Shown piece after piece: positions 2,446 through 38,800 of a stretch of 42,278 bases of DNA. The notes below the pieces were generated by a model. That model was given only the letters and a program-made list of their open reading frames with translations. It had not been told where the DNA came from and did no database searches. The first letter of the stretch is position 1. Every line of letters starts with the position of its first letter. The position numbers were made by a program, and so were the translations under genes. Source of the DNA: a virus; IMG/VR virus record IMGVR_UViG_3300020172_002369, positions 1 to 42,278 of that record; one strand, given 5' to 3'.

Positions 2446-3480
2446 ATGAAATCCGAGACACTTGTTTACTACAAATACAAACCTACGGTAAAACCAAATC
2501 TTGCAGGTAAATTCTGCGCAATACCATTTTCAATGATTGAAATTGATGAAGATGGAGATGTGATGTTATGTGGGTGTCAGTATCATATGCCCTACGTGAT
2601 TGGCAACATATATCATAATTCTATCACGGACATCTGGCAAAGCCCATCAGCAAAAACAGTGCGTGATAGTGTAGTTGCAGGAGAGTTTACTTACTGCAAT
2701 TGGACTTGCCCAAATCTTCAAAATGCCCCACAGCGGCCGGATGTAATCCCAGATCCGGGTGTATTTCCAGCCTGGGTTAAAATTGACCTTGATCGTAGCT
2801 GTAATCTGAAATGCCCATCATGTCGTGAAACTGTAATCCAAGAAAAAGACAATACACGTATCGCCAAACAACAAGAAATTTTTTCTGAAATTGTTACTCG
2901 AGCGGCCAATAACCCTGATGTCAGCTATACTGTATTCCCAATTGGTAGCGGTGAAGTATTTGCTAGTCGAAGCGGATTGCATTTTTTAAAATCTCTGACC
3001 AATTATCCACACAATAATATACAACTGGCAATATGTACCAATGGCACATTATTATGGCACCACCGCGAACTAGTTGATCAACTGATACATCACATGTCAT
3101 TTACTGTCAGCATTGATGCTGCCACAGCTGAAACCTATGCTCTAGTACGCGGAGGTAACTGGGAAGAATTACAATTGGGCATAGACAGATATCAAAAAAA
3201 CATTCAGCACTTTACTTTTGTAGTACAGGAAAAAAATTGGCATGAGATTGAGTTGATTGCTGAATACGCCGATCAACTGGGCAAACGAGTTGATTATCAA
3301 AAGTTTTTAGATTGGGGGCATTGGACCAATGACTGGTGGCACGAAAATAATCCCTTGGATCGACACAAAGATCATTATTTGGCTGTGCTTGGCGCATTGA
3401 ATCAGGTGCAGCAACGCTATCCAAAATGTACGTTTTCTACTGAGCTAATAAATTTAATGAACAAGGTCAAACAGCGTTGA
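2446..3480 (+). CDS. Twitch-domain radical SAM protein
   Basis: This 344-residue protein has the radical SAM cluster motif CNLKCPSC (C119, C123, C126). A cysteine-rich segment precedes it (FCAIPF, CGCQ, GNIY, then TCP near residue 84), of the twitch/SPASM auxiliary-cluster type, placed at the N-terminus. Family members cleave S-adenosylmethionine to make a radical and often modify peptides or sugars; the substrate here is unknown. It is the first of three similar genes (others at 10651 and 18326). All share the order of auxiliary cluster first, SAM cluster second. Confidence 0.8.
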   Translation: MKSETLVYYKYKPTVKPNLAGKFCAIPFSMIEIDEDGDVMLCGCQYHMPYVIGNIYHNSITDIWQSPSAKTVRDSVVAGEFTYCNWTCPNLQNAPQRPDVIPDPGVFPAWVKIDLDRSCNLKCPSCRETVIQEKDNTRIAKQQEIFSEIVTRAANNPDVSYTVFPIGSGEVFASRSGLHFLKSLTNYPHNNIQLAICTNGTLLWHHRELVDQLIHHMSFTVSIDAATAETYALVRGGNWEELQLGIDRYQKNIQHFTFVVQEKNWHEIELIAEYADQLGKRVDYQKFLDWGHWTNDWWHENNPLDRHKDHYLAVLGALNQVQQRYPKCTFSTELINLMNKVKQR

Positions 3481-10485: not shown

Positions 10486-10654
10486 TATAGAAGAACTTAG
10501 CGTTGAAGAACTTGAACGAGAGCATCATAAATTGGAAAAACAACTAGGCAAATTGGAAAAACATCCCATTGCTGATCATGACCGAATACGCGATATCAAA
10601 AAACTCAAACTACAACTCAAAGATCAAATTAAAGAATTAAAACGTCAGCTATGA
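10448..10654 (+). CDS. YdcH/DUF465-like coiled-coil protein
   Basis: The 68-residue product has an acidic N-terminus, then two amphipathic helices with the pattern LEREHHKLEKQL, HPIADHDRIRDIKKLKLQLKDQI, resembling DUF465 (YdcH family) proteins of unknown function. The start is fixed by AGAAGGA (10434-10440) seven bases before ATG 10448, so it overlaps the last 38 bases of dpdA in another frame. Its stop overlaps the start of the second radical SAM gene. Confidence 0.7.
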   Translation: MNQDLTNLSNSSNIEELSVEELEREHHKLEKQLGKLEKHPIADHDRIRDIKKLKLQLKDQIKELKRQL

Positions 10655-11895
10655 CTGTTGATATCAAAACTGTAAAGAATCAAATCCCTGAGGTTCCACC
10701 AGACAAGTTTTGTGTGGCGCCGTTCATCAGTACTATGCAAACTACTATTGGTAAAACTAGTCCTTGTGCATACGGTGTCACTGAATGGCAATTTGGTGAT
10801 CGCACACCTCAACAACGTTGGGACAGTGCTGAACTCAATCAGTTTAGATTGGATTTTTTACAAGGTACTCCACCTGCTCCATGTAACAAATGTTTTGACG
10901 AAGAAACAGCAGGAAAACAAAGCCTACGTCAACGTATGCTGGAGTGGTATCCGCAGGCCTATGAAGAACTGATACTAAGCGGGCAATGGGAACATGGTCC
11001 TCAACATATCAGCAGCAAAGTAAGCAATGTTTGCAACCTTGCTTGTAGAAGCTGCGGCGGATATGACAGCAACACCTATCATCGTGAAGGTGTGCATTAC
11101 ACTGAAAAATATAAAACCATAAACTTTATTGGTGAACCTGGTAATCGTTTTGTTGCAAGGTTCTCAGCCAAGCACACTGATTATTCAGGCTTCCGTGACA
11201 TTGATGCCAACATCACCAAATTGGAATTTTACGGTGGGGAACCACTGCTCAACTTATCGCATCTTGAGTTGCTGGAGCATCTAGTAAACACAGGACGCAG
11301 TAAAAATGTCACGCTGTTCTATAGCACCAACTGTACTCAACCCATCAACAATCGTCATCGCAAGGTTTGGGATAAGTTCAAACGAGTTGAATTCAGTTTG
11401 AGCATTGACCATGTTGGCGACAAGTTTCATTATCTACGTTGGCCTGGCAATTGGGCAGAAGTGCAAATCAATGTTGATAGTTTGTTGGCATTGCGTGATA
11501 GTTTAGATGCTGAAGTCACCTATGTGGTATCTCCGTGCTGCACCATGCTCAATGTCTACTACATTGATGAAATTTTAGATTGGGCACAGAGTTATGTGGG
11601 AGCCAGTTATATCAACATGGTGGCGAATCCATCCTATTTGGCTGTACATACTGCCCCGGATCATGTAAAATCTGCTATACTAGATCAAATAAAAGCACCC
11701 GAGGTACGAGGATTTTTACAACTTAAACCGCATAACAAGATTGATTGGCGACAATTTATTATCTGGACCAAACGTCAAGACCTATATAGACAACAAGATT
11801 TTACCAAAACTTTTCCTGAATTTTATCAACTGTTTGAATCTGATTGGAATAGTATCACTGATCTATCAGAAGAGAACTTCTTACGTGAGAGTTAA
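10651..11895 (+). CDS. Twitch-domain radical SAM protein
   Basis: The 414-residue protein has an N-terminal auxiliary cluster region (FCVAPF, SPCAYG, then CNKCFDEE), the SAM cluster CNLACRSC (C128, C132, C135) and the SAM-binding FYGGEPLL. It is the longest of the three paralogues here. ATGA coupling to the DUF465-like gene and direct abutment to the 169-residue gene at 11896 suggest a three-gene unit. Related enzymes modify peptides, but neither substrate nor partner can be named from sequence. Confidence 0.82.
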   Translation: MTVDIKTVKNQIPEVPPDKFCVAPFISTMQTTIGKTSPCAYGVTEWQFGDRTPQQRWDSAELNQFRLDFLQGTPPAPCNKCFDEETAGKQSLRQRMLEWYPQAYEELILSGQWEHGPQHISSKVSNVCNLACRSCGGYDSNTYHREGVHYTEKYKTINFIGEPGNRFVARFSAKHTDYSGFRDIDANITKLEFYGGEPLLNLSHLELLEHLVNTGRSKNVTLFYSTNCTQPINNRHRKVWDKFKRVEFSLSIDHVGDKFHYLRWPGNWAEVQINVDSLLALRDSLDAEVTYVVSPCCTMLNVYYIDEILDWAQSYVGASYINMVANPSYLAVHTAPDHVKSAILDQIKAPEVRGFLQLKPHNKIDWRQFIIWTKRQDLYRQQDFTKTFPEFYQLFESDWNSITDLSEENFLRES

Positions 11896-17476: not shown

Positions 17477-18244
17477 ATGGTATATGAAAAAATGTATGTA
17501 GACGGCGATGACGAATCAGCGTCAAACGCAACAGCAAGTGATAAAGATTATCAAGAATCATATCTAGCTGATGCAATACGTACCCAAATGAAACATGATA
17601 AGAAACGTTTCTGGGCCGGTGATAACATCAGTGGGTATGTTAATGACAATCAGAAATCTAGACTAATTGACGAAGCCGCGGAAGCATTTGAAACTGTGCT
17701 AGATCGATTGCTGATTGATCGCGAAACAGATCCCAACAGTCAAGGCACAGCACGTAGATTAGCCAAGATGTACTTTAACGAAATCATGGCAGGAAGATAC
17801 GAACCTGCTCCAGATGCAACAGCATTTCCAAACGACACAACAGACCGTTATGAAGGCATGCTGGTTGTTCGCAGCGAGCTTCGTAGTATGTGCAGTCACC
17901 ATCATCAACCAGTCAGCGGAGTTGCATACATTGGAATCATTGCTGCTGAAAAGCTCATTGGTTTGAGCAAGTATACTCGCATTGCTCAGTGGTGCGCTCG
18001 CCGTGGCACACTACAAGAAGAGTTATGTAATGATATCGCCAGAGAGATTATAAAAGCCACTGGCAGTAAAAATGTAGGCGTGTACATACAGGCCACACAT
18101 GGTTGCTGTGAAAATCGCGGTATCATGGCACATAGTTCATTGACACAGACCACTGTGCTGACAGGTGCATTCAAAGATGATGCCAGTGTCAAGAAAGAGT
18201 TTATGGACAATATCAAATTGCAACAAGAGTTTGCGCCTAGATGA
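17477..18244 (+). CDS. folE: GTP cyclohydrolase I
   Basis: FolE converts GTP to dihydroneopterin triphosphate, the first step toward 7-deazaguanines and folates. The family's zinc site is intact: MCSHHH (C139, H141, H142) and THGCCENRG (C210 or C211). The core GLSKYTRIAQWCARR and VYIQATHG are also typical. At 255 residues it is somewhat longer at the N-terminus than bacterial FolE. With QueD, QueE and DpdA it most likely feeds DNA modification. It has the best promoter in the window, and a 31-residue gene starts in overlap with its stop. Confidence 0.95.
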   Translation: MVYEKMYVDGDDESASNATASDKDYQESYLADAIRTQMKHDKKRFWAGDNISGYVNDNQKSRLIDEAAEAFETVLDRLLIDRETDPNSQGTARRLAKMYFNEIMAGRYEPAPDATAFPNDTTDRYEGMLVVRSELRSMCSHHHQPVSGVAYIGIIAAEKLIGLSKYTRIAQWCARRGTLQEELCNDIAREIIKATGSKNVGVYIQATHGCCENRGIMAHSSLTQTTVLTGAFKDDASVKKEFMDNIKLQQEFAPR

Positions 18245-18336
18245 TTGCCGGAATCCTGGCATTGATCAAACTCTTGGCCATGGGAGTGATAATGCTGGCC
18301 ATGGTTTGGTGGGTAACTCAACGACATGATGAATAA
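18241..18336 (+). CDS. 31-residue transmembrane microprotein
   Basis: ATG 18241 overlaps the folE stop (ATGA). The peptide is almost entirely one hydrophobic helix (IAGILALIKLLAMGVIMLAM) with a polar tail ending RHDE. Its last 11 bases overlap the start of the third radical SAM gene. It could be a small membrane peptide of phage function, or a coupling peptide. There is no homology evidence. Confidence 0.45.
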   Translation: MIAGILALIKLLAMGVIMLAMVWWVTQRHDE

Positions 18337-19477
18337 AAACAAAGAGATGACGGATTGGTATTGTCCCTTGCCATTCAAACATGCTTTTGTTGACAGCAAT
18401 GGTATAAGTTCGTGTTGCCAACTCACACGACAACAGACTAGTTTAGATGAATGGCATACCAATCCCAAGTTGCTTCAGTTGCAGCAACAAACTTTGTCAG
18501 GTACAGCACCAGCACAGTGTCAGGCCTGTGTGACTCAGGAACAGTTGCAAGGGCATAGTTTACGCACAGACAGTTGGGCAGATTATAACCATGAAAAGTT
18601 CACCGCTACTGACATTGATTTTGTAGATTATCGCAGCAGCAACATCTGCAATTTTAAATGTCGCAGTTGTGCTCCGGAATTTAGTCATGGTATTGCCAAA
18701 GAGACGCGAGACACAGTTGGATTACAAAAATTCAATGTTGTAGTAGCCGATAAAACTGTGGGAGTTGACGAAACCAATCGTGCATGGATTGTCAACAATT
18801 TGTCAAACATCAAAAGACTAATGTTTACTGGTGGTGAACCCACCGTGATACCCGAAGTTAAATTGATTCTTGAAGAAGTTCGTCGCCAAAACATACATGA
18901 CTTGTCGGTGTTAATAACTACCAATGGTAGCTTTGTTGACAAATTTTGGTATGACATAACTCAAGAATTCACCAACTTACATTGGACTGTGAGTGTCGAC
19001 GCAGTGGACCATGCTGCTGAAATTGTTAGACATGGTACCAACTGGACAACAGTTGAGCACAATCTTCGTTGGTTATCCAAACATGCTCGGAGCATGGATA
19101 TCAACACTGTGGTATCCAATTTAAATGTGTTGCAGTTGGCGCCACTGTTACGATTTGTTAGAAAAATACAATTACAATCCATTGACAGTGGACAGATGGG
19201 CAGTGATGGCTGCAGGCATCAGTTTTTTGTATGTCAGCGTCCTTACATGTTGGCCGCAGACAACTGGCCTGATCAAATGATTGTGTTAGAGTATTTAAAT
19301 CATTGCCTGGCATTGGACTTAGACAGTGCGCAGAGATCAACTATAGAGAATTTAGTTGACGCTATACACAACAATCCATTTGAGATTAAACTGTGGGCAA
19401 AGGGTGTGGAATACAATGCGATATTAGACAATATTCGCAATGAAGATCATAATATACTAAGAGATCCAACATGGTAA
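18326..19477 (+). CDS. Twitch-domain radical SAM protein
   Basis: The 383-residue protein has an N-terminal auxiliary cluster region (WYCPLPF, CCQL, then CQACV), the SAM cluster CNFKCRSC (C108, C112, C115) and a MFTGGEPTV motif for SAM binding. It is a paralogue of the proteins at 2446 and 10651. The start is ATG 18326 or 18329; both overlap the 31-residue gene upstream. Substrate unknown. Confidence 0.82.
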   Translation: MMNKNKEMTDWYCPLPFKHAFVDSNGISSCCQLTRQQTSLDEWHTNPKLLQLQQQTLSGTAPAQCQACVTQEQLQGHSLRTDSWADYNHEKFTATDIDFVDYRSSNICNFKCRSCAPEFSHGIAKETRDTVGLQKFNVVVADKTVGVDETNRAWIVNNLSNIKRLMFTGGEPTVIPEVKLILEEVRRQNIHDLSVLITTNGSFVDKFWYDITQEFTNLHWTVSVDAVDHAAEIVRHGTNWTTVEHNLRWLSKHARSMDINTVVSNLNVLQLAPLLRFVRKIQLQSIDSGQMGSDGCRHQFFVCQRPYMLAADNWPDQMIVLEYLNHCLALDLDSAQRSTIENLVDAIHNNPFEIKLWAKGVEYNAILDNIRNEDHNILRDPTW

Positions 19478-21468: not shown

Positions 21469-22035
21469 ATGGCAACTATCAATGTAGATGTTGGTGACAT
21501 GTCACCGCAAGAAGCGACTCAATTTCTGAATAAACTCAGACCAATACAATACAAATACACCAGCACCAAAGAATATCACGACGCTTTTCCCTGTGCATAT
21601 AGGCAATGGCGTGCTGACAGTCACTGTAATCTAATACATGGTTACAGTTTCAGCATGAAGTTTTACTTTGGCACAGACAACTTAGATGTGCGCAATTGGG
21701 CAGCTGACTATGGTGGACTCAAAGAACTAAAGAAAATACTCGAGGATCAATTTGATCACACATTGTTGGTGGCGCAAGATGATCCAGAATTAGAAACATT
21801 CAAACTGCTGCAACAGCGGAACATGGCCAAACTCACCATTCTACCAAGATTGGGCTGCGAAGGTCTAGCCGATATGCTTTACAAATATGTCAATGGAGTG
21901 TATATTCCAGACATGTGGGGGCCAGGTGAAGCAGAACGTCTGTGGTGTTATCGAGTTGAAGTACGTGAAACACAGAGCAATATGGCATTCCGAGAAGGAC
22001 ACAGGGAATGGAACGAAGATTTATTTGGAGAATAA
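21469..22035 (+). CDS. queD: QueD-like 6-carboxytetrahydropterin synthase, variant
   Basis: The family pattern is recognisable: FPCAYRQWRADSHCNLIHGYSF aligns with the QueD zinc/catalytic region, followed by DHTLLV and a C-terminal VEVRETQSN. C53 and H57 match the catalytic Cys and one zinc His, but two other zinc histidines appear as tyrosine (Y44, Y59), a variant I recall in marine phage homologues. It would turn the FolE product into carboxytetrahydropterin for QueE. At 188 residues it is longer than E. coli QueD (121). Confidence 0.85.
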   Translation: MATINVDVGDMSPQEATQFLNKLRPIQYKYTSTKEYHDAFPCAYRQWRADSHCNLIHGYSFSMKFYFGTDNLDVRNWAADYGGLKELKKILEDQFDHTLLVAQDDPELETFKLLQQRNMAKLTILPRLGCEGLADMLYKYVNGVYIPDMWGPGEAERLWCYRVEVRETQSNMAFREGHREWNEDLFGE

Positions 22036-24566: not shown

Positions 24567-24587
24567 TTTTATTTCTTGTGCTATACT
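24559..24587 (+). promoter_or_regulatory. Sigma70-like promoter for queE
   Basis: TTGACT (24559-24564), a 17-bp spacer ending GTGC, and TATACT (24582-24587), with an extended -10 TGC. It overlaps the last codons of the MazG-like gene. Confidence 0.65.
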
Positions 24588-24611
24588 CGCACAAAACTCT
24601 CAAGGAATATC

Positions 24612-25481
24612 ATGCAACTTAAAATAGCTGAAATATTTTATAGTCTACAAGGTGAAGGACGTTGGGCTGGTGTGCCCAGCGTTTTCATGCGCACATTTGG
24701 TTGTAATTTTCAGTGTCGTGGATTTGGGTTACCGCGTGGCGAGAAGACTACTGAGCCTGAAGAGATTGCCGCTGACATACAACTTTACAAAACCTATCAA
24801 GACTTGCCGCTGGCGCGAACTGGCTGTGACAGCTATGCATCATGGCATCCGGCGTTTAAGCATCTGTCACCATTTATGACCTTGGATGAAATTGCTGATC
24901 GTATGCATGGCATGATTCCCAAAAACAAGTGGAGTCCAGACAACATCAGTGACGATGTTCATTTGGTCATCACTGGTGGTGAACCATTGCTGGGCTATCA
25001 AGTTGAATATCCTGAACTTATTGAAAAGTGTCGCCAACAAGGATTGCGTAACATCACATTTGAAACCAACGGCACTCAGTTTTTACACGAAGAAGTTAGA
25101 GAATATCTCTTTGAAGAATTCACTAGACATGGTAGAGATTATGATCGCTTGACTTTCAGTGTCAGTGCCAAGCTGCCATGTTCGGGTGAGCGGTGGGAAG
25201 ATGCCATACGTCCTGAAGTTGTCAAAAGTTATGAGATGGTGGGCATGACGTATCTCAAGTTTGTTGTGTCCAACGATGATGATTTAAACGACGTTGACGA
25301 AGCAGTGTATCAATTCCGCAAGGCTGGCTTTGGTGGTCCTGTGTATTTGATGCCCACAGGCGGCATTCCTGACTTGTACAACTTCAATGTGCCGCAAGTG
25401 GCTGAGTTGGCAATGAAGCGTGGCTATAGATACAGTCCTAGATTGCAAGTAGATATCTGGCGCAATGCCTGGGGAACTTGA
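24612..25481 (+). CDS. queE: QueE-like 7-carboxy-7-deazaguanine synthase, split cluster motif
   Basis: The start is at ATG 24612 after AAGGA. The N-terminus IAEIFYSLQGEGRWAGVPSVF and the ITGGEPLLG motif are typical of QueE, which makes CDG from carboxytetrahydropterin. The cluster motif is unusual: C31-x3-C35 is followed by Phe where the third Cys should be (CNFQCRGF). C72 begins a CDSYASW segment that matches the usual CDS..TW after the third Cys. This implies a 34-residue insertion inside the cluster loop. The enzyme may still be active. Confidence 0.85.
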   Translation: MQLKIAEIFYSLQGEGRWAGVPSVFMRTFGCNFQCRGFGLPRGEKTTEPEEIAADIQLYKTYQDLPLARTGCDSYASWHPAFKHLSPFMTLDEIADRMHGMIPKNKWSPDNISDDVHLVITGGEPLLGYQVEYPELIEKCRQQGLRNITFETNGTQFLHEEVREYLFEEFTRHGRDYDRLTFSVSAKLPCSGERWEDAIRPEVVKSYEMVGMTYLKFVVSNDDDLNDVDEAVYQFRKAGFGGPVYLMPTGGIPDLYNFNVPQVAELAMKRGYRYSPRLQVDIWRNAWGT

Positions 25482-32873: not shown

Positions 32874-33660
32874 TTGTATCAGTTCTAGATTAAAACGATT
32901 GAGTGCGAATCGTCCCGCAAGGGTTTAGCAAGGGTTTGATGCAGTAACGTGACTTCGGCATCATGTAACAGTCAGTTCCTTGTTAGCATTAGATCAGATG
33001 GTAGGAAACTACCCAATGGTTGTAGGTGACGATGGGCTTTATAGGAACCTTCACTTTTTATGCACCGTTCATCTAGGGGTTAGGATACCGCCCTTTCACG
33101 GCGGGTACAGGGGTTCAAATCCCCTACGGTGTACCATATTAAAGCACATTACGGCCAAGGTCTAGAGATAACTTCATACTACGCCGTGACAGGATATAGA
33201 AGCAGACCTAAACCTGTTGTATAGTGTGTTTTAATATGGTAATAACTTGAGTTGTGGCAAGTATAGTCCACAAACAGGAGTGTAACCTGATAAGCATAGA
33301 AAATAAATGCTTAACGTGAATGAGCCATCTTTTGACCGTGGGCTTTAGGCAAGAAACACATAAGAAAACGGCAGGCGTAAAACGTGACCACAATCGCCTA
33401 GGTGGTTCGAGTCCGTACATCGAGGCCATATTGAAGCACATTGCGATGCCGTTCCGCGGCGGCGACCACAAAGAGAGTAGTGTGCTTCAATATGGTGGAG
33501 TCGACCAAAAGAACGTTCCAGCGTCACTGGATACTCTGACCCAGAGGATGAGAAGTAGTGTGACAACTACGGGTGGTACCGTTCCAACCGAAACGGCGCT
33601 GGCAATGCGAGAACGGGCCCTGTTGTGGAGCGGGTGGAGGCCGTAGCAATACGGTATAAT
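32874..33660 (+). ncRNA. Large structured RNA candidate around tRNA-Glu
   Basis: About 790 bases with no credible protein gene but dense base-pairing. GNRA-capped hairpins are at 33000-33013 (GGTAG-GAAA-CTACC) and 33641-33654 (CCGTA-GCAA-TACGG). Long stems pair 33132-33148 with 33225-33241 and 33426-33440 with 33481-33495. Hairpins include TTGTGG/CCACAA and TAAGCAT/ATGCTTA (in 33250-33320). A four-way junction is closed by 33518-33523/33597-33602 with three 5-bp hairpins inside (33534-33546, 33555-33570, 33579-33596). Size, tRNA linkage and phage setting recall GOLLD RNAs, but I cannot confirm the family. Confidence 0.55.
33062..33136 (+). tRNA. tRNA-Glu (TTC)
   Basis: The cloverleaf is complete: acceptor GCACCGT pairs with ACGGTGT, the anticodon stem CCGCC/GGCGG encloses loop CTTTCAC with anticodon TTC (33095-33097), the T-arm is GGGG-TTCAAAT-CCCC, and the CCA end is encoded. 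The CCA is also the start of a 17-bp stem that continues downstream. Confidence 0.92.
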
Positions 33661-33699
33661 TACCGCCAGGGGTCGCAGAGCATTTTCAATTTTAATTAT

Positions 33700-33791
33700 G
33701 GAGATATGGCTGAGAGGCTTAAGGCAGCGGTTTGCTAAACCGTCGTATTGATTAAACAGTACCGTTGGTTCGAATCCAACTGTCTCCGCCA
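33700..33791 (+). tRNA. tRNA-Ser (GCT)
   Basis: The 92-nt length and long variable arm fit serine. Acceptor GGAGATA/TGTCTCC, anticodon GCT at 33734-33736 in loop TTGCTAA, T-loop TTCGAAT, encoded CCA. It reads AGC/AGU codons. Confidence 0.93.
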
Positions 33792-33797
33792 AGTAAT

Positions 33798-35225: not shown

Positions 35226-35285
35226 CACTTGTAAATGTGCCGACAGGGCATCTACAAAATCTTGCTTAATTCAAAGGAGAAAACA

Positions 35286-37163
35286 ATGAGCACAATTATA
35301 GGTATTGACCTTGGCACCACCAACTCATGCGTGGCTGTTGTAGAAAACGGAACCCCAAAAGTAATTGAAAATTCTGAAGGCGCACGTACTACGCCATCGA
35401 TTGTTGCCTACACCGACGCCGAAGTTCTAGTTGGTGCACCGGCAAAACGTCAGGCAGTGACAAACCCCAAGAATACAATTTACGCAGCCAAGCGTTTGAT
35501 TGGACGCAAGTTCAAAGAACAGGCTGTGCAAAAAGACATTGACCTAATGCCATATCAAATCATGGAAGCATCAAATGGTGATGCATGGGTCCGAGCCAAC
35601 GATCGAGAACTAGCACCTCCACAAATTTCAGCTGAAGTCTTGCGTAAGATGAAAAAGACTGCAGAAGATTATCTTGGACATGAAGTCACACAGGCAGTTA
35701 TCACAGTGCCTGCTTACTTCAATGATTCGCAACGTCAAGCTACCAAGGACGCTGGTAAGATTGCAGGCTTAGAAGTGTTGCGTATTATCAACGAACCCAC
35801 CGCTGCTGCATTGGCCTATGGCGTGGACAAACAAGATACACGCGATCGCAAGATTGCTGTGTATGACTTGGGTGGTGGCACATTTGACGTGTCAATTATT
35901 GAGATTGCTCATGTTGACGGCGACAAACAAATTGAAGTGTTGAGCACAAACGGTGATACATTCCTAGGTGGTGAGGACTTTGACCAGCGCATCATGGATT
36001 ATCTAGTTGACGAGTTCAAGAAAGAGTCAGGAGTTGATCTCAAGGCCGATGTAATGGCCTTGCAGCGTCTCAAAGAAGCTGCCGAACGCACAAAGATTGA
36101 ATTGTCAAACAGCGCACAAACTGATGTAAACTTGCCTTACATCACTGCCGACGCCACCGGTCCCAAACATCTAAATGTCAAAATGACTCGTGCCAAATTG
36201 GAAAGTCTTGTGGAAGAATTGATTCAACGCAGTCTGGCACCATGCCGTCAGGCCTTGACCGATGCCAAAGTCACTGCCTCAGACATTGATGAAGTTATTC
36301 TCGTTGGTGGTCAAACACGTATGCCCAAGGTACAGGAAGCAGTTGAAAAACTGTTTGGCAAGGCACCACGTCGTGATGTCAATCCTGACGAAGCAGTGGC
36401 CGCAGGTGCTGCCTTGCAAGGTGCTGTGTTGGGCGGTGAACGCAAAGACGTATTGTTGCTTGACGTAACTCCACTAAGCCTTGGTATTGAAACACAGGGC
36501 GGTGTGTTTACTAAATTGATCAACAAGAACACTACCATACCAACCAAGCATAGCCAAGTGTTCTCCACTGCCGATGACAATCAACCTGCTGTGACTATCA
36601 AAGTTGCGCAGGGCGAGCGTGAACTATTTCAGTACAATAAATCATTAGGTGAGTTTAATCTTGAAGGTATTGCACCAGCACGTCGTGGTCAGCCACAAAT
36701 TGAAGTCACACTTGACATTGATGCCAATGGTATTATGCATGTATCGGCCAAGGACAAAAACACCGGCAAAGAAAACAAGATCACTATCAAATCCAACTCA
36801 GGTCTCAGCGATGCCGAAGTTGAACAGATGATCAAGGATGCTGAACTCAATGCCGAGGCCGACAAGAAGCAACGTGAATCCATTGAAACACGCAATCAGG
36901 CCGAATCACAGTTACACATGATTCGTGCTGAAATGAAAGAAGTGGAATCGCAATTGACCGACGAACAAAAGGCCTCTGTCAACTCAGCAATCACTGCGGT
37001 TGAAACTGCTGTACAAGGCGATGACCTGGAAGCAATTAAATCTAGCCTAGATGAATTGTTCAAGGCTGCTGCTCCAATCTTCGAGGCCAAGGCCAAAGCA
37101 TCCGAGGCTGCACAACCAGCAGATGAAACTGTTGTTGACGCCGACTTCAAAGAAAGCAAGTAA
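35286..37163 (+). CDS. dnaK: DnaK (Hsp70) chaperone, complete
   Basis: AAAGGAG fixes the start at ATG 35286, rejecting ATG 35235. The 625-residue product is a complete Hsp70: [15 protein letters not shown] (phosphate 1), [40 protein letters not shown] (phosphate 2), [11 protein letters not shown] (adenosine) and the substrate-binding domain starting near [14 protein letters not shown], then a helical lid. The sequence looks betaproteobacterial and is probably acquired from a host. No dnaJ or grpE is present. It likely aids virion protein folding or replication using host co-chaperones. Confidence 0.97.
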
Positions 37164-37335: not shown

Positions 37336-38184
37336 TTGAAAAAAATCCTAACTATAATCGTCGTGTCGTTGTGTTTAGTCGGCACTGCTGAAGCGAAAAA
37401 ACGTCACCACCATCATCGTCATTCACATCCGGCAGTGGTAAAAAAAGCAAAACGTCATTCTGTTCACACAACTAATCCCATCAGCGTCTGGGCGTATGAC
37501 ATCAAAACACAATTACCAATTGTTGGACAAGGCACACAACTTGTAAGGCCAATGGCCAGTCTGACAAAGTTAATGACTGCAATGGTGAGCCTTGACCACA
37601 ACAACAATCTTCAACAGACAGTGTATTATCAAGGTCGGTCAGTGCCTAGAGAACGATTATTTCAACGTTTGTTGATTCGTAGCGATAACAACGTAGCAGA
37701 ATTTCTAAGTCAAGATTATCCAGGTGGCCGTACTGCATTTCTCAATGCCATGAATCACAAAGCCGCACGGCTGGCCATGTTAAACACACACTTTGATGAT
37801 CCATCAGGTCGTATTCAAACCAATGTCAGCACTGCCGAGGATGTTGGTAGAATGTTGGAAGCAGCACATGGATATCAAATCATACGTAGAATTTCAACTT
37901 ACCAAGATTTAGAAACCACCACAGTAGTACATCGTAGACACAAAACCTATACTAGTGTTAGCCATGTACCAAATACCAACACTATGGTACTGTCGGCTTT
38001 TCCTGAAGTGGTAGTAAGCAAAACTGGGTTTACCAATCCGGCTGGGTATTGTGTGGGAGTAGTTGTTGAACAAAACGGTCGCACTTATGCTGTGGTCATT
38101 ATGGGTGCTCAAAATCGTTATCAAAGATTTGACAAAGTAAAAGAAGTCATGCATAATCATATTGTAACGGCTTCAACCATATAA
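37336..38184 (+). CDS. S11 D-Ala-D-Ala endopeptidase/carboxypeptidase-like
   Basis: TTG 37336 follows GGAG by six bases and gives a signal peptide (KKILTIIVVSLCLVGTAEA). A very basic, His-rich segment (KKRHHHHRHSHP) comes next. The penicillin-binding triad is complete: SLTK (S75, K78), SDN (116-118) and KTG (229-231). The 282-residue length and lack of a C-terminal anchor fit PBP7-type endopeptidases that cut peptidoglycan cross-links in the periplasm. It may help lysis or prevent superinfection. It is unusual in phage and probably host-derived. Confidence 0.88.
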   Translation: MKKILTIIVVSLCLVGTAEAKKRHHHHRHSHPAVVKKAKRHSVHTTNPISVWAYDIKTQLPIVGQGTQLVRPMASLTKLMTAMVSLDHNNNLQQTVYYQGRSVPRERLFQRLLIRSDNNVAEFLSQDYPGGRTAFLNAMNHKAARLAMLNTHFDDPSGRIQTNVSTAEDVGRMLEAAHGYQIIRRISTYQDLETTTVVHRRHKTYTSVSHVPNTNTMVLSAFPEVVVSKTGFTNPAGYCVGVVVEQNGRTYAVVIMGAQNRYQRFDKVKEVMHNHIVTASTI

Positions 38185-38192
38185 AGAATAAT

Positions 38193-38266
38193 GCGGGGTT
38201 CGTATAATGGTAATACCTTAGCCTTCCAAGCTAAAGCCGAGGGTTCGATTCCCTTACCCCGCTCCA
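38193..38266 (+). tRNA. tRNA-Gly (TCC)
   Basis: Acceptor GCGGGGT/ACCCCGC, anticodon stem TTAGC/GCTAA with loop CTTCCAA and anticodon TCC (38225-38227), T-loop TTCGATT, discriminator T, encoded CCA. It reads GGA/GGG codons. Confidence 0.93.
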
Positions 38267-38286: not shown

Positions 38287-38412
38287 ATGGGCACTGAACA
38301 ATTATACTTTGTTATTGGATTCTTACTTGGTACAATGTTGACCGGCTGTTTGGTGGTAATTGCCTATGCGTTTTGGCATGAAGTATTAGACAAGCCAGAG
38401 ATAGAAGAATAA
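38287..38412 (+). CDS. Single-pass membrane microprotein (41 aa)
   Basis: The short frame between tRNA-Gly and tmRNA encodes one hydrophobic helix (LYFVIGFLLGTMLTGCLVVI) and an acidic tail (DKPEIEE). There is no good ribosome site. It ends immediately before the tmRNA acceptor piece. Confidence 0.5.
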   Translation: MGTEQLYFVIGFLLGTMLTGCLVVIAYAFWHEVLDKPEIEE

Positions 38413-38734
38413 AAGAATTGTTGTAATTCCTTTGGAGTAAAGGCATTCTGGACGTGGGTTCGACTCCCACCTGGTCCACCAGAAGCATATTTGCAGACCG
38501 TGCGACTCTTTGTGAAAAAGACCGTACTGCAGGACGAAGTATGTTTCTGATGGGCCAGACCCGGCTTCGACAGGGTGAGATAGCAAAGAAGGCAACACGG
38601 TAATGTGAAAACCGTAGGGTTGGGGTAACCTAGCCGAAGAAGCAAAACTAGTAACTGCAAACGCAGCTAACGACGAGGTTTTTGCTCTCGCAGCGTAATC
38701 TCCGGGGCAACTATGCCTTGTAACCCAAAATAGT
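38413..38734 (+). ncRNA. ssrA: Circularly permuted (two-piece) tmRNA
   Basis: The 3' tRNA-like half comes first: T-arm GTGGG-TTCGACT-CCCAC, acceptor strand CTGGTCC, discriminator A and CCA (ending 38481). A 70-nt intervening segment (38482-38551) folds as a stem GAAGCATA/TATGTTTC with TGCAG/CTGCA inside. The 5' half begins with GGGCCAG (38552-38558), which pairs with CTGGTCC over all seven positions. The tag frame is 38657-38698, reading ANAANDEVFALAA then TAA. Permuted tmRNAs occur in alpha- and betaproteobacteria and cyanobacteria. It rescues stalled ribosomes and tags their products for proteolysis. The exact 5' end is uncertain. Confidence 0.92.
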
Positions 38735-38757
38735 AAGCCCGCTTCGGCGGGCTTTTT
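38735..38757 (+). terminator. Rho-independent terminator after tmRNA
   Basis: AAGCCCGC-TTCG-GCGGGCTT, an 8-bp stem with a stable UUCG loop, followed by TTT. Confidence 0.92.
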
Positions 38758-38777
38758 CATTTCCGTATCTGGGCGTT

Positions 38778-38785
38778 CTTAAATA
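38778..38785 (+). promoter_or_regulatory. TAAATA-type candidate late promoter
   Basis: CTTAAATA sits 15 bp before ATG 38801, just after the tmRNA terminator, so the next gene needs a promoter here. Confidence 0.4.
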
Positions 38786-38800
38786 CAGCAAGGAGAATAC

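Follow-up and report, generated by a model that had tools for sequence, protein, structure and literature searches.

The 42-kb virus record analysed here (IMGVR_UViG_3300020172_002369; 42,278 nucleotides), hereafter called the window, is an incomplete fragment of a freshwater phage. Within a tRNA-rich stretch of this fragment, positions 38413-38757 of the plus strand hold a tmRNA gene of the betaproteobacterial type that is complete and circularly permuted (two-piece). ARAGORN called a permuted tmRNA at 38389-38789, and cmscan with Rfam matched beta_tmRNA (RF01850) from end to end of the model at 38364-38759 (130.4 bits, E 1.2e-39) and tmRNA_permuted (RF04321) at 38419-38698 (119.7 bits). The curated cut-offs of these models are 84 and 47 bits, respectively. 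For the unpermuted model RF00023, no match over the window's gene was listed by cmscan, with weaker overlapping clan matches dropped, and in relatives this model reached 23.6 bits at most, against a cut-off of 47. A preliminary description made from the sequence had proposed that the phage encodes a permuted tmRNA with a tag of its own, to be checked by covariance search; ARAGORN and both permuted models agreed with that proposal, and the better unpermuted hit that it had named as refuting did not appear. The E-values, together with the ANAAND tags of 37 or more relatives, excluded a chance match. The beta_tmRNA score of the window fell well short of the 284 bits reached by a Cupriavidus plasmid copy.

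The features of the locus, all on the plus strand, were as follows.

38193-38266 (+): tRNA-Gly(TCC) just upstream of the tmRNA, a possible co-transcript (ARAGORN, cmscan)
38419-38481 (+): acceptor (tRNA-like 3') piece, with the 3' half of helix 2, the T-arm (38454-38470) and ACCA (38478-38481), from the cmscan alignments to RF01850 and RF04321
38471-38477 (+): acceptor 3' strand CTGGTCC, pairing with 38552-38558
38482-38551 (+): 70-nt intervening segment (spacer) whose ends pair, 38482-38491 with 38538-38547 (10/10)
38552-38558 (+): acceptor 5' strand GGGCCAG, start of the coding piece, pairing with 38471-38477 including G3.U70
38593-38650 (+): putative pseudoknot 1 region in a long version, from alignments; shorter in the nearest relatives
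38655-38666 (+): predicted resume-codon hairpin CUGC-AAAC-GCAG, from an invariant block; fold of -4.6 kcal/mol
38657-38698 (+): tag frame ANAANDEVFALAA plus TAA, with resume codon GCA at 38657-38659, from the sequence and relatives
38703-38734 (+): H-type pseudoknot downstream of the tag, with S1 38703-38707/38716-38720 and S2 38710-38714/38730-38734
38735-38757 (+): intrinsic terminator AAGCCCGCTTCGGCGGGCTTTTT, from a terminator scan

The acceptor half (38471-38481) precedes the 70-nt spacer and the coding half (38552 onward), as first described, and the two acceptor strands pair at all seven positions claimed (7/7). The only G.U is the third pair, where it is the alanine identity element. 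The 7-bp acceptor, G3.U70, encoded CCA and T-arm were all identified from the sequence and the cmscan alignment. The GGGCCAG strand was identical in 37/37 distinct phage sequences, a set picked by exact match to the 3' strand. Between the tRNA-Gly and the tmRNA lies a 41-codon frame (38287-38412) whose stop codon abuts the start of the interval first described. Antisense open frames over the tmRNA (38386-38760, minus strand) and over a tRNA-Ser (33487-33792, minus strand) would be easy false gene calls.

In known permuted tmRNAs the intervening segment is missing from the mature RNA. The spacer arms of 37 distinct phage segments paired at 9.3/10 positions on average, compared to 6.7 with the arms swapped (0/5000 permutations as high), and the pair types differed on both sides across the phage sequences. 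The spacer-end stem also appeared in the minimum free energy (MFE) fold of the window. The paired spacer was ruled out as a phage invention by the same pairing (GAAGCACATTG...CAGTGCGCTTCTGAT) in the Cupriavidus plasmid copy. That copy (L237:550-881) is a beta-type permuted tmRNA with the tag ANDEKFALAA on a 1.67-Mb plasmid; its acceptor, GGGCCTG/CAGGTCC, is close to the phage type, and similar matches occurred on two more Cupriavidus plasmids.

Analyses of the tag frame confirmed the 13-residue tag ending in ALAA, encoded by GCA AAC GCA GCT AAC GAC GAG GTT TTT GCT CTC GCA GCG TAA. The resume context reads GUAACU|GCA; positions -5 and -4 are T and A, a combination found ahead of the first GCA only. 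In E. coli, SmpB recognises this -5/-4 context (PMC4236655, PMC8363625); SmpB contacts the four nucleotides ahead of the resume codon, of which the A at -4 is critical (PMC8363625). The tag given by ARAGORN for the window, EEAKLVTANAANDEVFALAA, was seven residues too long at its N-terminus. We attribute this to an error in start choice, because the same program read ANAANDEVFALAA in the closest relatives and because only the first GCA has T(-5)A(-4). As standard annotation misreads the tag of the window, extended tags may be misannotated elsewhere. The tag consists of ANA, three residues from a 9-nt insertion, ahead of the canonical ten residues ANDEVFALAA, themselves a common phage tag. Since the insertion itself ends in alanine directly before ANDE, the AAND...ALAA degron is left whole, and the frame has an alanine resume codon, a short tag ending in ALAA and a stop codon. 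No mention of the extended tag was found in the tmRNA literature searched, and it may still have been reported.

The whole interval folded better than 100/100 shuffles (MFE z-score -3.09). A lack of pseudoknots on folding had been named in the preliminary description as evidence against the gene; the downstream pseudoknot was supported by comparison among phages. The same layout was present in approximately 38/43 distinct phage sequences, and the letters of S2 changed with pairing kept, as within the window's own sub-type (ACTAT/ATAGT to GTTAT/ATAAC in L224). The stems were picked by a pairing-maximising search, and the pseudoknot was not significant on the window's own sequence, for which 118/258 shuffles scored equally high; the claim therefore rests on the repeated layout. 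The pseudoknot 1 region of the window differed in length and sequence from that of its nearest relatives (L191, L202) and resembled that of L194, L223, L247 and L262. Sequence resemblance of this kind suggests that a pseudoknot 1 module has been exchanged among phage tmRNAs.

Searches for the extended-tag pattern ANAANDE-x-(F/Y)-x-L-A-A with any synonymous codon identified 46 viral contigs, and the pattern tied to the TAR-NN-GCA context identified 47, nearly the same set. Among the loci tested with ARAGORN there were 38 NAAND tags, one of them ATAAND, all in permuted tmRNAs, whose acceptor stems were of five or more kinds. In 34/34 distinct extended-tag sequences (a set that omits one cut by a contig end), the 16-nt block TAACTGCAAACGCAGC around the resume codon was invariant, including its synonymous sites, three of which are third positions left free by the search pattern. 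All ten third positions after the block varied across these sequences with the amino acids kept. The same places also varied in 60 distinct non-extended ANDE tags (TAAATGCC in 31, TAAATGCA in 10 and TAAACGCA in 9). An invariant block offers no covariation by which the predicted hairpin could be proven. The hairpin was not stronger than in non-extended tags (mean folding energy -4.65 for extended versus -5.76 for non-extended tags). A hairpin unique to the extended-tag class was ruled out, as the E. coli sequence folds alike and a hairpin at that place in E. coli is published (PMC8363625). Predicted tags of a different kind, very long ones of 28-34 residues such as ANANTFDFSAMSFTGNTVRGAANESRFALAA, were seen in the phage permuted tmRNAs L165, L176, L208, L213, L223 and L228; one of these does not end in Ala-Ala.

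An exact 26-nt stretch of the acceptor and T-arm was found in 67 viral contigs, and 63 of these 67 loci were read as permuted tmRNA by ARAGORN. Its only occurrence in approximately 85,000 bacterial and archaeal species genomes was in a tRNA-Ala gene, which ruled out the Eremiobacterota metagenome-assembled genome concerned as a host lead. Based on these counts, the acceptor variant is a mark of the phage lineage and no recent acquisition from a sequenced host. A host search by exact 36-mer gave no match. In isolate phages, blastn with the tmRNA gave no match at the default limit; with E values up to 10 allowed, the matches were only partial and none covered more than 16% of the query. A query with the extended-tag DNA gave no real match there either. 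As for the host, the one indication is the betaproteobacterial type of the tmRNA, and the tag names no host genus here. The preliminary description overstated the case in calling tmRNA genes rare in phages and permuted ones rarer: tmRNA was reported in 402/18,146 phage genomes, and 53/133 distinct phage tmRNA forms were two-piece, 50 of those 53 from marine or aquatic samples (PMC9004378), while a single 26-mer led to 67 viral contigs here. A current tmRNA database holds 11,946 unique permuted entries and 79 phage sequences of all forms (PMC11915505). A two-piece tmRNA in a phage is not unusual and has already been published for aquatic phages. The new detail is the three-residue extension of the tag, common to approximately 46 uncultured viral contigs, a modest lineage-specific twist.

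The best matches of the family-B DNA polymerase (polB) of the fragment were to Sinorhizobium phage Phosso and Agrobacterium phage Atu_ph07 (45-50% identity), both jumbo phages of more than 460 kb, and phrog_262 and phrog_107 were further markers of phage identity. The polymerase had at least 80 close relatives in IMG/VR. A beta-type tmRNA match was present in 4/50 relative polymerase contigs, most of them short fragments, and was over the cut-off in three. Two contigs (IMGVR 3300028025_004186 and 3300010885_049703) carried the same tmRNA and tag in the same neighbourhood of DnaK, carboxypeptidase and tRNA genes, with the DnaK 95-98% and the carboxypeptidase 87-91% identical to those of the window. 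The DnaK/HSP70 of the window (35235-37163, plus strand) is full-length, with 642 aa and a PF00012 match of 865 bits; HSP70 was found in 6 of the 37 contigs tested, mostly tmRNA-bearing. The gene at 37336-38184 (plus strand) encodes a D-Ala-D-Ala carboxypeptidase-like protein (Peptidase_S11), possibly for phage cell-wall work. Elsewhere on the plus strand are genes for GTP cyclohydrolase I (17477-18244), a PTPS/QueD-like protein (21469-22035) and a radical-SAM (QueE-like) protein (24576-25481), which likely represent a 7-deazaguanine pathway like that of phages whose DNA is modified. Three more radical-SAM proteins are encoded at 2446-3480, 10651-11895 and 18326-19477 (plus strand), one with a SPASM domain.

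Taken together, the data make it very likely that a jumbo-type phage here carries a complete ssrA of the permuted betaproteobacterial type, which probably works. SmpB was identified in 0/50 tmRNA-bearing or closely related phage contigs, all of them fragments, whereas it was detected in 10/14 positive-control genomes. A phage SmpB could lie outside the incomplete fragment, and the partner is presumed to be the host SmpB. As judged from the sequence, ordinary trans-translation by phage tmRNA, host SmpB and host proteases is most likely the best reading. The gene architecture, the tag, the conservation and covariation across phages and the SmpB-free related contigs were observed directly; we infer expression, processing, charging, the SmpB partner, the protease and the benefit as follows. 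The transcript would fold with its spacer ends and acceptor strands paired, and excision of the 70-nt spacer by tRNA-processing enzymes of the host would leave two RNA pieces held by base pairing. Charged with alanine via the G3.U70 pair, the RNA would enter stalled ribosomes with host SmpB and resume at GCA (38657). The stalled peptide would receive A+ANAANDEVFALAA, an ssrA-type degron for host ClpXP-type proteases. The likely benefit would be to sustain ribosome rescue in infected cells, where host RNA breaks down and truncated mRNAs abound. The roles suggested in the preliminary description, steering to host proteases beyond the ordinary ssrA role or replacement of a host tmRNA lost in infection, gained no support from the data here and are at most possible.

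Three other explanations were weighed against a working phage ssrA. One is that the gene is a recently captured host tmRNA without phage function, either a passenger or a relic of integration at ssrA. Its beta-type bacterial ancestry is clear, and capture has been proposed as the source of phage ssrA (PMC9004378). However, the distribution of the 26-mer, in many viral contigs and in a single tRNA-Ala of the species genomes, argues against such a passenger, as do the diversification of tags, acceptors and spacers among phages with coding and structure kept and the continued constraint observed on the gene across many phages; we regard it as very improbable. Equally improbable is resumption at the later alanine codon GCU (38666-38668), which would yield canonical ANDEVFALAA and make the 9-nt insertion structural only. 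The exact length and invariant nucleotides of the insertion and the common phage tag encoded downstream fit this idea, but the T(-5)A(-4) context of the first GCA is missing at the GCU, including the A at -4 that is critical for SmpB (PMC8363625).

Slightly less improbable, but still unlikely, is an RNA that interferes and does not help, by competing with the host tmRNA or re-addressing tagged proteins. A tag-less tmRNA-like RNA of phage DS6A is described, in work cited in PMC11915505, as inhibiting the endogenous tmRNA, and some phage tags lack the Ala-Ala end (e.g., ANANTGEVTVSGKNVKFSARTVKAESFAV). In the window, however, the AANDEVFALAA degron is complete, and the tag frame has a proper resume context and a stop codon. 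Beyond the working ssrA that we favor, we speculate, with considerable doubt, that the extended-tag genes form a phage-specific two-piece tmRNA class with the ANA extension, in which UAACUGCAAACGCAGC (the 16-nt resume-codon block) is kept invariant as a hairpin, and which is exchanged among many aquatic phages and tuned for rescue better than, or different from, that by host tmRNA in infection. The approximately 46 contigs with one extended tag provide a defined set for testing tag choice, the resume-codon hairpin and dependence on host SmpB.

Compared to known systems, the window's gene shares with the betaproteobacterial permuted tmRNA (RF01850) the permuted order, G3.U70 acceptor, T-arm, helix 2, resume context and ALAA tag, and differs in its lower model score, its acceptor GGGCCAG/CTGGTCC, its longer spacer (70 nt) and its tag of 13 residues instead of the usual 10. 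The predicted small hairpin over the resume codon resembles that of E. coli (U88-A100; PMC8363625) and may protect the codon until use; unlike in E. coli, the 9-nt insertion would contribute to the extended-tag phage hairpin CUGC-AAAC-GCAG, whose letters show strict conservation. Huge phages with tmRNA and SmpB are likewise large-genome phages carrying translation-rescue genes, and sometimes encode SmpB (PMC7162821), in contrast to the relatives of the window (0/50 contigs, as above). The closest published parallel in setting is the Methylophilales phage Melnitz, an aquatic phage with tRNA genes and a phage-borne permuted ssrA (PMC9004378). The Melnitz tmRNA belongs to the alphaproteobacterial lineage and has a linked glutamine riboswitch (PMC9004378), whereas that of the window is beta-type, with no riboswitch in the window over the Rfam cut-off by cmscan. 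Alongside that example, the window is one more piece of evidence for phage-encoded tmRNAs in many aquatic phages.
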